From NCBI RefSeq assembly GCF_031180965.1, contig NZ_JAPSLH010000031.1, forward strand, positions 1 to 46,331: a stretch of DNA of 46,331 nt, written 5' to 3'. The position numbers and the translations under genes are program-made. Below the pieces are notes generated by a model, which made no database searches, was not told the DNA's origin, and saw only the letters and a list, made by a program, of their open reading frames with translations. Source of the stretch: Chelativorans sp. (GTDB lineage: Bacteria > Pseudomonadota > Alphaproteobacteria > Rhizobiales > Rhizobiaceae). Below are positions 3,394 through 41,713 of the stretch, one piece after another. Numbering within the stretch: the stretch's first letter is position 1; each line of letters begins with the position of its first letter.

Positions 3394-4713
3394 CTATGCG
3401 CCGTAGACCAGCCTATCCTGGCGGGCCCTGAGCTCGGCGATCTTCGACCCAGCCGGCGGCGCTGCATTCTCGTAGGTGATGAGTTCGCCTTTGCGGATCG
3501 GCTTCAGAACCTGGCCGCCCTGCAGCAGGCCGCAGGGAATGGCTTTTGCTGCCCGGGCTTCCCCTACCTGCATGATCCAGGCGCGGTATGTATATTCGCC
3601 GATGGCGTCGAGCTTATCGCCGGGCTGCAAATCCTTCTTGGCGACCGCGCAAACCTCAGCGACGGGCTTCGCCAGGGGCACCATGTCCGCCTTGCCGTAA
3701 AGCGCGACCCGGGCGCAGGTGAGCGGCACTTCGAGTGAGGTGAGGTGATAGGGCCGGTGGAAGGTGAAATAGGGACCGTGGCCCATCTTCAAATCCTCCA
3801 TGCGCTCGCGGATGCGCGGATGCGACATGTCGGCGATGACGAACACGCCGGGCGCCACTCCCTTGCCGATGGAGTAATCCACCACGCCGACCCTCGACAG
3901 CACTCCGCCGTCCTTCTCCGGGATCAGCGTCTTGTTGAGCTCGGAAAGGGTAGCCGCTGGACCATGCATGCCCGGCTTGTCCGGGACCAGACCCGTGGCG
4001 TTGGCGATCGCCGCCATTTCGACCATCGTCTTCGAGCCGTCGACGAATTCCACGAGCATGCGCACATTCATATTCCGCCGCTCTGCTTCCTCGGCGTAGT
4101 CGTCCGGGATGGCGTCAATGTTGAGCGGATTGTTTTTGCCTTTTCCGGCCGCAACGATCGTGTGGCCCATGGCGGAGACGAACTCAATGAGCTCCATGCA
4201 GGAGGATGGCTCGTCGCCGGCACCCAGCGAATAGATGACACCCAGCCGGTCCGCCTCGCTTTTCAGATAGGCGCCAATGGTCACATCCGCCTCGACATTC
4301 ATCATGACGAGATGCTTGCCGTGCTCCATCGCGCGAAGGCCGATCTCGGCACCCACAGCCGGTACGCCAGTCGCGTCAACCACCACGTCAATCAAATCGT
4401 TTTCGATGACCTGGTTTGCGTCCTGGGTGACCGCGATCTTGCCCGCCTCGATCGCCTGTGTGACAGAGGCGGTGCTGTCCGCCGCACGCGCATGGCCGTC
4501 TTCCTGATAGGCAACTTCGACCGCCTTCAACGCCGCGTCCGGCCGCAGCTCCGAGATGGCGCCGATGCTCACGCCCTTCATGTGAGCCACGCGCGAGACG
4601 ATGTCGGTGCCCATCTCGCCGCAGCCGATGAGGCCGATCCGGACAGGTTTTCCCGATTTGGCGCGCTCGTCGAGATCGCGGGCAAGGCCGGTGAGCGCAA
4701 CATTGGTCGCCAT
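3394..4713 (-). CDS. drl: DRL/DXR-II-like NAD(P)-dependent oxidoreductase with SAF domain
   Basis: This 439-residue protein has an N-terminal Rossmann fold (GLIGCGEMG, residues 27-35), a homoserine-dehydrogenase-like middle part (MMNVEADVTIG, SLGAGDEPSSCMELIEF, GKGKNNPLN) and a C-terminal SAF-type domain (from about residue 335, PLAKPVAEVCAVAKKDL). From memory it closely resembles Brucella DRL, the alternative 1-deoxy-D-xylulose-5-phosphate reductoisomerase of the MEP isoprenoid pathway, which was misannotated as homoserine dehydrogenase. Not every family member has that activity, so the reaction here is inferred. I chose the ATG at 4713 (MATN) because GGGAGGTG lies just upstream and the Brucella protein starts the same way; an in-frame ATG at 4734 has no such support. 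It heads the E1/E2 operon, so a catabolic role with those enzymes is possible. Confidence 0.82.
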   Translation of the reverse strand: MATNVALTGLARDLDERAKSGKPVRIGLIGCGEMGTDIVSRVAHMKGVSIGAISELRPDAALKAVEVAYQEDGHARAADSTASVTQAIEAGKIAVTQDANQVIENDLIDVVVDATGVPAVGAEIGLRAMEHGKHLVMMNVEADVTIGAYLKSEADRLGVIYSLGAGDEPSSCMELIEFVSAMGHTIVAAGKGKNNPLNIDAIPDDYAEEAERRNMNVRMLVEFVDGSKTMVEMAAIANATGLVPDKPGMHGPAATLSELNKTLIPEKDGGVLSRVGVVDYSIGKGVAPGVFVIADMSHPRIRERMEDLKMGHGPYFTFHRPYHLTSLEVPLTCARVALYGKADMVPLAKPVAEVCAVAKKDLQPGDKLDAIGEYTYRAWIMQVGEARAAKAIPCGLLQGGQVLKPIRKGELITYENAAPPAGSKIAELRARQDRLVYGA

Positions 4714-4746
4714 GGAACACCTCCCGAAGATCACAGCGTTTTTAGA

Positions 4747-4775
4747 CGGTTAGTGAACATATGTATTCGTGTCAA
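4747..4775 (-). promoter_or_regulatory. Candidate sigma-70 promoter of the drl-E1-E2 operon
   Basis: On the minus strand a perfect -35 TTGACA occupies 4775-4770. Seventeen bases further is TAACCG (4752-4747), a poor -10. The leader to the ATG at 4713 would be about 30 nt. The -35 lies inside the inverted repeat described separately, which suggests repression by a DNA-binding protein. No start-site data are available. Confidence 0.4.
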
Positions 4776-4782
4776 TACGAAT
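4765..4782. promoter_or_regulatory. Candidate operator: ATTCGT-N6-ACGAAT inverted repeat
   Basis: This is a perfect 6-bp inverted repeat with a 6-bp spacer (arms 4765-4770 and 4777-4782). It covers the -35 of the presumed drl promoter. Size and position fit a dimeric repressor or activator site. No regulator gene is visible on this side of the operon. Confidence 0.45.
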
Positions 4783-4861
4783 GTCTCATATATGGGCCAG
4801 CGCTGGAGGACGGCAAGACCGTCAGCGCAGCCGGCGAGACGACCGGGCCCGGTGCGACACA

Positions 4862-4882
4862 TTTGCATGGCAGCTGTGCAAA
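4862..4882. promoter_or_regulatory. Inverted repeat TTTGCA-N9-TGCAAA upstream of the sRNA promoter
   Basis: The perfect 6-bp arms are at 4862-4867 and 4877-4882. The repeat ends 6 bp before the candidate -35 of the sRNA, a typical place for an activator site. Chance occurrence cannot be excluded from one copy. Confidence 0.3.
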
Positions 4883-4888
4883 AGAGCG

Positions 4889-4917
4889 CTTTAAATCCTC
4901 GCACGACCCTCCTATGT
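4889..4917 (+). promoter_or_regulatory. Candidate promoter of the anti-SD sRNA
   Basis: CTTTAA at 4889-4894 is separated by 17 bp from CTATGT at 4912-4917. This resembles the CTTAGAC/CTATAT-type promoters of rhizobial sRNA genes, although the -35 match is partial. It places the 5' end near 4924, directly before the first hairpin. Confidence 0.35.
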
Positions 4918-4923
4918 AAGCCG

Positions 4924-5048
4924 CGAGTTCTCGGCGGGGTTCCCCTCCTCCCGAATCCCGTCGAGCTCGGTCAGCCTATCCTCCTCCTCCCGGGCTGGCC
5001 GACCCAAAGAGCACCCGCCGGATCTCCTCCCCCGGCGGGTGCTTTTTT
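4924..5048 (+). ncRNA. alpha-r14/NfeR1-like trans-acting sRNA with three anti-Shine-Dalgarno loops
   Basis: Three hairpins stand in tandem. Hairpin 1 pairs 4930-4942 with 4953-4965 and exposes CCCTCCTCCC (4943-4952). Hairpin 2 pairs 4967-4976 with 4993-5002 and exposes CCTCCTCCTCCC in its loop. Hairpin 3 is a perfect 11-bp stem (5011-5021 with 5032-5042) with loop ATCTCCTCCC, followed by six T, a Rho-independent terminator. Stacked hairpins with CCUCCUCCC loops complementary to Shine-Dalgarno sequences are, from memory, the hallmark of the alpha-r14 (Sm14/NfeR1) family of alphaproteobacterial sRNAs of about 115-125 nt. Such RNAs are thought to block translation of transporter mRNAs. The 5' end is estimated from the candidate promoter. 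The gene is convergent with the phosphodiesterase gene that ends at 5075. Confidence 0.78.
5011..5048 (+). terminator. Rho-independent terminator of the sRNA
   Basis: A perfect 11-bp GC-rich stem (5011-5021/5032-5042) with a 10-nt loop is followed by TTTTTT (5043-5048). It is also the third hairpin of the sRNA. On the other strand it lies just past the end of the phosphodiesterase gene, but the T tract there is poor. Confidence 0.85.
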
Positions 5049-5074
5049 CATATGGCCTGAAAGAATTTTGCAGC

Positions 5075-6856
5075 TTAATGCGGCTGCATGCGCCTGAGCC
5101 CCTGCGGATCCTGCCCCGCGAACGCGTCCTTGCCGCGCAGCACCGACAAGCGATGGTCGAACAGCCATCCCCGGAAGGTGTCCGCGGCCAGCGGCCGGCT
5201 CAGAAGATAGCCCTGCCCGAAGTCGCAGGAGAGATCCTGGAATTTCTGGAGCGCCGAGCGGGTCTCGATCCCTTCCGCGACCACTTTCTGTCCCAATTGA
5301 TGGGCAGCATCGACTGCCAGGCGCACCACCACGCCGACCTGCGGGTCGGCTTCGACCTCATGCGCGAAGCTCGCATCCAGTTTGATGACGTCCACCGGGA
5401 GCTTGGCGAGGTAGGACAGGGAACTCTGGCCGGTGCCGAAATCGTCGAGCGCAACGCCCACTCCAAGCTGGCGCAGCCGCGCCAAGCTGCGCATCGCCGC
5501 CGCGGGATCCCGCATCAGCGCATTTTCCGTCACCTCGAGCACCAGGCGCGGCGCAGGCACAGCATGATTGGACAGCAGCTTCGCGGTGGAGGCCGCAAAC
5601 CGCTCATCTTCGAGATCACGGACGGAAATATTGACATAGAAGTCGAGCTCGAAACCTTCCGCCTGCCACTGCTTCATCTGCCGCAGGCTGCGGTCGATGA
5701 CGAGGCGCGTCAGCTCGCCCATCAGTGCGGTCTTTTCGGCAGCCGGGATGAAATCTCCCGGGGGAATCGGGCCCAGTTCGGGGTGCTCCCACCTCAGCAG
5801 CGCTTCCGCGCCCTTACAATGGCCGGTCTTCAGATCAAGGATCGGCTGATAGTGGAGCGAGAGGCAGTTGCCGGAGCGGATCGCCTCCTGCAAGTCCGGC
5901 AGCAGGCGGAGGGTAGACTGACGCAGCCGGTCGAACCGTCCGTCATGCACCACGATCGCCTCGTTCGCCTTCTCCGCGCGGTGAAAGCAGGCGATGCTTT
6001 CGCGCGTCAGCGTTAAGGCGTCTATACCCTCCTGCGCCATCGCTATCCCCACATGGCCGCTGGAGAGCGTCGGGATACCGCCGATCTCGAAACGTTCGCC
6101 CAATGCACGCGCAAATTTGGCGCCGATCGAACGGGCTTCCTCCGCCGACCTATGGATTGTCGCGAACAGCCCGGCTCTGATGGCGAAGAGCTCGGTTTCT
6201 GGAGACAGAAGCTGCAGGAGGCGATCCGACGCGACCCTGTATAGCTGATCGGCATAGGGGTAGCCGAAGCTTAGAATAAGCTCCTCGAAGTTGCCGATTC
6301 CAACAGTGAGCGCGACGACGGGAGGATCCGACGGCCGCCGCGCGGCAAGCACGGCCTCGATCCTCTCCAGATATGCGGCTCGGTTGGGGAGGCGAGTCAT
6401 ACGGTCACGATAGGCCTGCCGGCTCAAGGCCTTCACCTGACGGCGCAGCAGGTCGGCAGCGATGCCGGAGAGCGCTCCGATCAGAAGGAAAAAGCTGGCT
6501 CTGACGAGCCAGTTGTGCATGCTCTGCGCGGTCCCGGATTCCACCTCCAGAGGCATCGGCGGGCCCATAAGCAGGCCAGCCGCCAGGCCGGTAAGAAGAC
6601 CTCCGCGGATGCCGAAGGAGAACGCACCGATGACGATCGGCACATAGGCGAAATGGGCGTAGGAGTAGCGCGTTCCGCCCGTGGCGTAGACGATCGCGTA
6701 GGTCGCGGCAAGCGCCGCAAGAACGGTCAGGGCCGCCCAACGGCGCGTTGCCGGTCTGCTGCGCTCGGTCTCCACGAATTGAAGGAACCAGTCGCCCAGA
6801 GGATTGCGCCGCTTGAGAAACGGCGGAGTTCCTGATCTGGCCGGCTCTTCCTTCAT
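5075..6856 (-). CDS. Membrane c-di-GMP phosphodiesterase with degenerate GGDEF and intact EAL domain
   Basis: This 593-residue protein probably hydrolyses cyclic di-GMP. Three hydrophobic segments (about 41-59, 69-98, 117-136) form a membrane sensor module. The GGDEF domain (about 150-310) is degenerate: the signature is replaced by AGLFA (about 228-232), so cyclase activity is unlikely. The EAL domain (about 330-580) keeps its catalytic set: EAL at 351-353, N in YVNIS, E in LEVTE, DDFGTG, K in VIKLD, and E in VAEGIE. I chose the ATG at 6856, which comes 2 nt after the stop of the diguanylate cyclase gene, so the two are probably translated together. A longer frame extends upstream inside that gene and is not credible. 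Confidence 0.9.
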   Translation of the reverse strand: MKEEPARSGTPPFLKRRNPLGDWFLQFVETERSRPATRRWAALTVLAALAATYAIVYATGGTRYSYAHFAYVPIVIGAFSFGIRGGLLTGLAAGLLMGPPMPLEVESGTAQSMHNWLVRASFFLLIGALSGIAADLLRRQVKALSRQAYRDRMTRLPNRAAYLERIEAVLAARRPSDPPVVALTVGIGNFEELILSFGYPYADQLYRVASDRLLQLLSPETELFAIRAGLFATIHRSAEEARSIGAKFARALGERFEIGGIPTLSSGHVGIAMAQEGIDALTLTRESIACFHRAEKANEAIVVHDGRFDRLRQSTLRLLPDLQEAIRSGNCLSLHYQPILDLKTGHCKGAEALLRWEHPELGPIPPGDFIPAAEKTALMGELTRLVIDRSLRQMKQWQAEGFELDFYVNISVRDLEDERFAASTAKLLSNHAVPAPRLVLEVTENALMRDPAAAMRSLARLRQLGVGVALDDFGTGQSSLSYLAKLPVDVIKLDASFAHEVEADPQVGVVVRLAVDAAHQLGQKVVAEGIETRSALQKFQDLSCDFGQGYLLSRPLAADTFRGWLFDHRLSVLRGKDAFAGQDPQGLRRMQPH

Positions 6857-6858
6857 GG

Positions 6859-7656
6859 TCAGGCCACTTTTTCCATAGGGTCGGTGAACACAACGCGGTT
6901 CCGCCCGGCGCGCTTTGCCGCATAAAGCCGTCTGTCGGCCAGCTCGAGGATTTCGGGGACGGTAGCAAGCTCCTCGCCGAGCGGAGCTCCGCCGATGCTT
7001 ACGCTGAGGCCCGGCGCCCCCGACACCGGCACGGGCCACGGGATGGACTCCACCCGCTGCCGGATCTTCTCGGCTATATCGGCCGCATGGGCCGGCGACA
7101 CGTCCTTGAGCAGCACCGCGAACTCCTCCCCGCCAATGCGTCCCACCACGTCCCCGCCGCGGACGGACTGGCGAACCGCGCGGGCGATCTCGACCAGTGC
7201 GTCGTCGCCTCTGAGGTGCCCCAGGCGGTCGTTGATCTGCTTGAAATGGTCGGCATCGATAAGCAGCAGCACGTCGCGCTGCTGGCCGCGGTGGGCGGCT
7301 TCCAGATGCTCTATGAACCGCTCGCGATTGGGCAGCCCCGTCATCCGGTCGTGATTGGCCGTATACACCATGATCTCATGCGCCAGCCTGAGCTGCCGGT
7401 AAGATTCCTGCATTTCCTCATTGATAGCTGTGATTCTCTGATTCGCTTCCTTCAATCTTTCCGATTGGGAAAAGAGGTAGCACAGGATCGGCATGCCCAC
7501 GGCAATCGGGATGGCGAAGCATTCGATCAGGTCAACATGTGTGAAGGGGATGCCGGTGATCGCCCGCTCGATCAGGAATACCCCGTAGGTGGCGGCTATG
7601 GCGAGGGCGGTTACAGCCGACGCTTTGCCGAGGATCGCTCTGCTCGGATTCGTCAT
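6859..7656 (-). CDS. Diguanylate cyclase with GGEEF and I-site
   Basis: This 265-residue protein makes cyclic di-GMP from two GTP. It has two membrane segments (about 11-29 and 42-63), a short coiled coil (about 66-95) and a complete GGDEF domain with GGEEF at 175-179. An RGGD inhibitory site lies exactly five residues before it (166-169), which predicts product inhibition. The start is uncertain: ATG at 7656, or GTG two codons earlier at 7662. Neither has a strong Shine-Dalgarno sequence. It forms a two-gene unit with the downstream EAL protein, so synthesis and breakdown of the second messenger are set by one transcript. Confidence 0.9.
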   Translation of the reverse strand: MTNPSRAILGKASAVTALAIAATYGVFLIERAITGIPFTHVDLIECFAIPIAVGMPILCYLFSQSERLKEANQRITAINEEMQESYRQLRLAHEIMVYTANHDRMTGLPNRERFIEHLEAAHRGQQRDVLLLIDADHFKQINDRLGHLRGDDALVEIARAVRQSVRGGDVVGRIGGEEFAVLLKDVSPAHAADIAEKIRQRVESIPWPVPVSGAPGLSVSIGGAPLGEELATVPEILELADRRLYAAKRAGRNRVVFTDPMEKVA

Positions 7657-7806
7657 GGGCACGATATATAGTCCGCCGGCGAAGGAAGATTTTATCGGTT
7701 CTTTCGAATTTTACGCGCATGCAGAACATATCGCCAGTTGTCGGGGAACATAGTGGGCGAACTCGCGTTGGCCGCACGATCCCTGGACGACAACCGATCG
7801 AATCCC

Positions 7807-40492: not shown

Positions 40493-41713
40493 TCAGACGT
40501 CCATGTTGAGATGCTTCGCGACGGCGAAGATGTCCTTGTCGCCGCGGCCGGACAGGTTCATCACGATGATCTGGTCCTTGCGCATCTTCGGTGCGCGTTT
40601 GATCACTTCCGCCAGTGCATGGGATGGTTCAAGCGCCGGGATGATGCCTTCGAGCCTGGTGAGAAGCTGGAACGCCTGCAGCGCCTCGTGATCCATGATG
40701 GGCACATACTCGACGCGACCGAGCTCCTTAAGCCAGGAATGTTCCGGTCCGATGCCGGGATAGTCGAGACCAGCCGAGATGGAGTGCCCCTCCTTGATCT
40801 GCCCGTCCTCGTTTTGCAGGAGGTAGGTGCGGTTCCCGTGCAGCACGCCCGGCTGCCCGGCAGTAAGCGACGCGCAGTGCTCATCCCCTTCAAGGCCTTT
40901 GCCGCCGGCTTCTACGCCCACCATCGCCACCTGCCGGTCGTCAAGGAAGGGGTGGAAGAGACCGATGGCGTTGGAGCCGCCGCCCACGGCTGCCACCAGC
41001 AGGTCCGGCAGGCGGCCTTCCGCGGCCAGCATCTGCTCCTTCGTTTCGTGCCCGATGACGCACTGGAAGTCGCGCACCAGTTCGGGATAGGGGTGCGGTC
41101 CAGCGGCCGTGCCGATCAGGTAGTAGGTATCCTCGACATTGGTCACCCAGTCGCGCAGCGCTTCGTTCATCGCGTCCTTGAGCGTGCCGTGGCCGGACGT
41201 CACCGGTCTCACCTCGGCCCCGAGAAGCCGCATGCGGAAGACGTTCGGCGCCTGCCGCTCGACATCCGTTGCACCCATATAGACGACGCAGGGCAGGCCG
41301 AAACGCGCCGCCACCGTGGCGGTCGCCACGCCGTGCTGGCCGGCACCGGTCTCCGCGATGATCCGCGTCTTCCCCATGCGCCGGGCAAGCAGGATCTGCC
41401 CCAGGCAGTTGTTGATCTTGTGGCTGCCTGTGTGGTTGAGCTCGTCGCGCTTGAAGTAGATTTTCGCGCCTCCGAGATGCTCCGTCAGCCGCTCCGCGAA
41501 ATAGAGCGGCGAGGGGCGTCCCGTATAATGCGTGTTGAGATGCTGCAACTCGGCCTTGAACGTCGGGTCTGCCTTCGCCGCGTTCCAATGCTCCTGAAGA
41601 TCGAGGATCAGCGGCATCAACGTTTCGGCGACGAAGCGGCCGCCGAAAATGCCGAACATGCCCTGCTCGTCGGGTCCGGTGCGGAATGAATTGGGTTCGA
41701 CCGGCTTGTTCAT
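40493..41713 (-). CDS. trpB: Tryptophan synthase beta subunit
   Basis: TrpB joins indole and serine to tryptophan with pyridoxal phosphate. The 406-residue protein has the PLP lysine Lys99 in [15 protein letters not shown]-like ETGAGQHG and the GGGSNA phosphate-binding loop ([10 protein letters not shown]). GGAGG stands four bases before the ATG at 41713. It follows trpF by 10 bp. TrpA, its partner, is 330 bp downstream, after cutA. Confidence 0.98.

Follow-up and report, generated by a model that had tools for sequence, protein, structure and literature searches.

Among the closest described systems is the ar14 RNA NfeR1 (SmelC397, Smr14C2) of Sinorhizobium meliloti, which is presented in PMC10746234 as silencing ntrB through its loops by a pairing of 8 nt, as carrying three loops that are redundant, and as being activated by LsrB, with a promoter of the form CTTAGAC-N17-CTATAT together with an LsrB site, TGCA-N6-GCAT. 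The same account, from 2023, describes an anti-Shine-Dalgarno motif in all three loops, that of the terminator included, as a family-wide trait (PMC10746234), and in 2011 SmelA075 had been published with three hairpins and CCUCCUCCC-like loops (PMC3927594). A further group, the CcsR RNAs, is described as co-transcribed with, and cut from, the ccaF1 transcript, with the DUF1127 gene and the RNAs together making up the CIN1 locus (PMC10253847). The three-loop anti-Shine-Dalgarno design is thus already known, and since it has been published for the family it is not new in the locus described here.

The stretch of DNA analysed (the window, 46,331 nucleotides of Chelativorans sp.) contains a single Rfam match at gathering cut-offs, namely ar14 (RF02344) at 4926-5047 on the forward strand, which spans model positions 1-123 of 123 and scores 83.0 bits against a gathering cut-off of 58.8 (E 1.4e-13). 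This is the search that the first-pass annotation had proposed for its assignment of the RNA to the alpha-r14/NfeR1 group, with all three loops exposed, and the assignment is upheld by it. The RNA lies divergent from drl (DRL_cat, E 3.6e-68), an order also found in certain relatives; copies so placed are called drl-linked in the following list of features.

4864..4880 (+), inverted repeat TGCA-N9-TGCA, present in 5 of 6 drl-linked copies (not that of genome G008); by analogy a probable LysR-type activator site
4889..4895 (+), probable -35 element CTTTAAA, of putative function; core CTTTAA in 6 of 6 drl-linked copies
4912..4918 (+), probable -10 element CTATGTA, of putative function; each of the 6 drl-linked copies has CTATGTA, CTATCTA or TTATGTA
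4926..5047 (+), ar14 small RNA gene with three hairpins (Rfam RF02344, fold z -8.13)
4930..4965 (+), hairpin 1, GC-rich; anti-Shine-Dalgarno loop 4943-4952, CCCTCCTCCC; 6 of the 10 pairs of helix 1 double-changed in relatives
4967..5002 (+), hairpin 2, GC-rich; anti-Shine-Dalgarno loop 4978-4991, ATCCTCCTCCTCCC; 5 of the 7 pairs of helix 2 double-changed
5006..5048 (+), hairpin 3 (the hairpin itself to 5047), an intrinsic terminator; loop 5022-5031, ATCTCCTCCC; TTTTTT at 5043-5048; 8 of the 15 pairs of helix 3 double-changed

The minimum-energy and centroid folds agree on these three hairpins, and at -69.9 kcal/mol none of 200 shuffled sequences folds as low; the opposite strand is less exceptional (-62.1, z -3.33), yet there too 0 of 200 shuffles reach the same energy. 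Fold and letters alike bear out the three hairpins, the third ending in six T, that had been drawn between 4924 and 5048; all three are GC-rich. The CCUCCUCCC motif is unpaired in every loop of the RNA: it is complete in loops 1 and 2, whereas the third loop, reading UCUCCUCCC, carries 8 of its 9 letters, so that the earlier statement of a motif in all three loops holds in full for two of them and in part for the third. Only one cluster of two or more loop motifs within 110 nt is present in the 46 kb, at the ar14 gene, and it holds three. A terminator scan restricted to loops of 3-8 did not list hairpin 3.

Conservation was followed in A3, a MAFFT alignment of 29 of the 41 same-genus ar14 copies, from which a duplicate (L154), the weak phasin-linked L003 and ten copies of greater divergence (L166, L168, L169, L170, L197, L198, L199 and three of L159) were left out; by eye, nine of these ten have three motifs and L197 has two. 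Across the 29 copies, 98.4% of the cells are paired, falling to 34-52% when partners are slid by 1-3 columns, a control that is biased in favour of the structure because the consensus was derived from A3 itself. Double changes occur in 19 of the 32 pairs (shuffled mean 9.7) and in 120 cells (shuffled mean 38.6), the shuffles being such that the relatedness of the copies is not kept; further pair types, at 38 against 38.2, do not exceed the shuffled alignments. Identity stands at 93, 89 and 99.6% in the motif cores of loops 1, 2 and 3 (for loop 2 a gapped window row depresses the figure) versus 84% in the stems, and all three motifs are present in 28 of the 29 copies, the exception being L163 with two by exact pattern. 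In A3, therefore, ar14 stems vary in sequence while the loops stay constant, as is typical of the family, and the absence of compensatory changes and of conserved loops, which had been named as grounds for discarding the RNA, is not what is found. The window RNA is genuine and well conserved, yet unremarkable as one more copy in a family described before.

A probable start of transcription near 4924-4926 is indicated by the promoter-like block, in which the inverted repeat at 4864-4880 is, by analogy with NfeR1, a probable candidate for a LysR-type activator site. The block fits the published rhizobial boxes loosely, with a repeat spacing of N9, not N6; its likeness to the NfeR1 promoter, which is of the sigma-70 type and has an NtrC box besides the LsrB box, is inexact, if suggestive. 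An E. coli-type promoter scan of 4650-5150 found no promoter.

The same genome holds two ar14 matches above the cut-off, that of the window and a stronger one of 93.7 bits at C30:44466-44587 (L001:1501-1622, reverse strand), which lies behind a 46-aa DUF1127 gene (Pfam DUF1127, E 2e-18) and begins 8 nt past its stop codon. Below the cut-off there are a match of 41.5 bits on contig C50 and, up to E 10, eight more of at most 23.6 bits each. Matches over the cut-off occur in 37 of 61 genomes, the present one included, and matches at E <= 0.001 in 45 of 61; among 14 control genomes there are none at either level, although at the loose limit of E 10 nine of the 14 also give ar14 matches, all under the cut-off. 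Relatives also show weak matches of 30-52 bits, the contexts of which were inspected for some. A blastn search of PLSDB returned no plasmid copies of the window RNA.

The C50 element (40756-40853, L003:1501-1598, reverse strand) is RNA-like, with two hairpins as judged by eye, C-rich TCCTCC loops and a terminator, and lies after a phasin gene (Phasin_2, E 3.9e-15) and near a tRNA. On contig C25 (L004:1501-1569, forward strand) two models match weakly, CcsR1 at 27.0 bits against a cut-off of 65.3 and ar14 at 23.6 bits. Tandem arrangements are also seen—e.g., four ar14 copies at G035:C23:266663-267184 (L189), three of them over the cut-off and one at 58.4 bits, with a DUF1127-like C-terminus before the first, and three consecutive copies at G013:C1:402900-403540 (L159), each with a TGCA-N9-TGCA repeat at -55.

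When 94 ar14 matches are sorted by context (all over the cut-off except the C50 element and the 58.4-bit copy of the L189 array), 28 fall into a DUF1127 class, defined by a text pattern in which an upstream frame resembles the DUF1127 C-terminus and has its stop within 60 nt of the RNA; every one of the 16 same-genus genomes contributes a copy to this class. The remaining 66 include later members of tandem arrays and phasin-linked copies. A TGCA-N9-TGCA-like repeat lies upstream of 25 of these 66, the window copy included, versus none of the 28 in the DUF1127 class, and for 24 of the 25 the distance from repeat to RNA is 55 to 62 nt. In 200 block shuffles the count of such repeats averaged 0.71 and never exceeded 4, it being understood that the 25 repeat-bearing copies are related and hence not independent. 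A -10-like CTATGTA, CTATCTA or TTATGTA precedes an ar14 copy in 13 of the 16 same-genus genomes (in G006 and G008 the copy with this element is without the repeat). With a DUF1127-linked copy in all 16, it follows that at least 13 of the 16 hold both kinds.

On comparison of positions, the divergent order of drl and RNA is found in 6 of the 16 same-genus genomes (G000, which is the present one, G002, G008, G009, G012 and G014), with G003 only partly judgeable on the upstream side as its drl begins 271 bases from a contig end. In a set of 80 named drl loci, a three-motif cluster precedes drl in one, that of Chelativorans sp. J32 (L042, within which the G002 stretch lies); at four of the 80 (L046, L052, L058, L119) fewer than 300 bases precede drl, so that absence there means little, and a two-motif cluster near drl at L091 was left unscored. 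The start of drl itself is probably the ATG at 4713 on the reverse strand, four bases past GGGAGGTG, rather than the GTG at 4734; in 69 of the 80 named relatives the match begins only at residue 4-8 of the longer frame.

On the other side of the RNA, 5075-7662 on the reverse strand is occupied by an EAL gene (with GGDEF) and a GGDEF gene with overlapping ends, the EAL gene (5075-7039) being convergent with the RNA. Among the loci searched, including the five other drl-linked ones over 1500 bases beyond drl, this phosphodiesterase gene matched its own locus alone; a conserved linkage of phosphodiesterase and RNA is accordingly not supported, and the EAL gene may have been inserted later, in this lineage. 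The frame past the RNA instead matches the glycosidase gene of the window in G012, G009 and G014 (83-87% identity) and, partially, in G002 (41%), while at the G008 locus neither the EAL nor the glycosidase gene was matched. The window GGDEF gene finds a match (54% over 72 residues) next to an unlinked ar14 copy of G015 (L163:1-216), so that GGDEF genes adjoin such RNAs outside this lineage too.

With high confidence, the window RNA can be placed among the trans-acting small RNAs of the ar14 family and, within these, with the own-promoter kind. The C-rich loops of such RNAs are similar to the 16S rRNA end that carries the anti-Shine-Dalgarno sequence. Transcription would run from near 4924-4926 to hairpin 3 and yield an RNA of about 122 nt offering three C-rich single-stranded loops, any one of which could pair with ribosome-binding sites of the GGGAGG(AGG) type and thereby keep ribosomes off the target mRNAs; as for NfeR1, activation would come through the LysR-type site and the three loops would be redundant. 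Structure and family membership are supported by the present data, and transcription, LysR-type activation, the block of translation and the redundancy of the loops are carried over from NfeR1 by analogy.

That the copy is instead silent or redundant, being unexpressed or leaving the work to the DUF1127-linked copy, is unlikely. The genome does hold two full ar14 copies and a weak one, and a review (PMC7143759) relates that only one of six S. meliloti copies was reliably detected by northern blot under the conditions tested; a dead copy would however be expected to lose both its stem pairing and its promoter, whereas here double changes keep the stems paired, the promoter-like block is conserved, and a copy with such a -10 element recurs in 13 of the 16 same-genus genomes. 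Still less credible, to the point of being almost negligible, is the notion that the region merely provides a terminator for neighbouring genes with repeats arisen by chance: hairpin 3 with its six T does resemble a good intrinsic terminator, but the flanking gene at 5075-7039 runs towards the RNA and has no match at the five other drl-linked loci searched, and two more covarying hairpins, the promoter-like block and the family match would be left unexplained.

A local role, in which the divergent RNA would bind the ribosome site of drl, GGGAGGTG, and regulate that gene, is very improbable, even with the neighbourhood kept in six of the same-genus genomes. In loop-only duplexes with the window loops, a model outside which mRNA accessibility falls, this site forms 6 contiguous pairs at -11.7 kcal/mol (values of -15.9 and -18.4 from loop strings that included stem letters are superseded). 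Random 35-nt stretches of the same genome pair as well in 554 of 5000 cases, about 1 in 9, a count perhaps slightly raised by the pool (the window, L001-L011 and L211-L273), part of which was chosen for strong ribosome sites. The drl starts adjoining an RNA (n=6, -8.8 to -12.2) pair no better than the others (n=7, -8.1 to -15.6) over the 13 of 16 same-genus genomes covered, and the near absence of three-motif clusters before drl in the named loci (1 of 80) speaks against the same role. The suggestion of drl as a possible target, made in the first-pass annotation, is thus not borne out, and drl was rejected as a special target.

At the ntrB start of this genome (ntrB being assigned by its place before ntrC and by reading frame) there is AGGAG only, giving about 5 contiguous pairs at -6.4 to -8.4 kcal/mol. 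Sites of the form GGGAGGAG-N3-9-ATG number 42 in the genome versus 9 for the reversed pattern, and control AAGGAGGA sites 38 versus 9. At the GGGAGGAG loci (30 of the 42 sites), 26 distinct ORFs of at least 60 aa were scanned, of which 20 have a Pfam hit and 6 are ABC-transporter parts (one of them, L214, below the Pfam cut-off); 30 control loci gave 23 ORFs, 16 with a Pfam hit, among them 2 ABC and 2 TRAP binding proteins. Some of these ORFs may have false starts, the IspF-like L215 in particular being judged to begin at an internal ATG. On these small sets and raw counts, 6 of 20 against 2 of 16 (4 of 16 with TRAP), an ABC-transporter regulon is not supported, and the transporter mRNAs suggested earlier as targets do not differ discernibly from strong ribosome sites in general. 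Among drl, ntrB and the strong ribosome sites examined, no specific target stood out.

The most useful addition made here is that copies with an apparent promoter of their own and copies linked to DUF1127 occur together within a single genus. The ar14 riboregulator family is also extended to another genus. A tentative reading, on balance doubtful, is that this genus maintains distinct anti-Shine-Dalgarno RNAs that share their loops but differ in expression logic, all feeding one shared translational brake: one kind with its own promoter and an inverted-repeat activator site, as in the window; one that is probably freed from a DUF1127 mRNA; and, in the present genome, a two-hairpin kind after a phasin gene. 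If this is true, different signals would be channelled into one common brake on translation. The two coexisting kinds also offer a clean comparison by which to ask if RNAs with near-identical seed loops differ in their job by timing.

Placed beside the described systems, the window RNA is like NfeR1 in length, in its three hairpins, in its CCUCCUCCC-type loops and in its apparent own promoter, and differs from it in the detail of the promoter boxes and in the weak pairing with ntrB (5 contiguous pairs versus 8 nt). A likeness by description extends to SmelA075, SmelA099 and the cuckoo RNAs, for which PMC3927594 gives three or four hairpins with a CCUCCUCCC-like motif per loop. With CcsR1-4 of the CIN1 locus it has the CCUCCUCCC-type loop motif in common; the CcsR1 model (RF02791) gives 33.3 bits on the window RNA, short of its cut-off of 65.3, and the window copy does not lie behind a DUF1127 gene, whereas the C30 copy of the same genome does, and so has the CIN1 arrangement.
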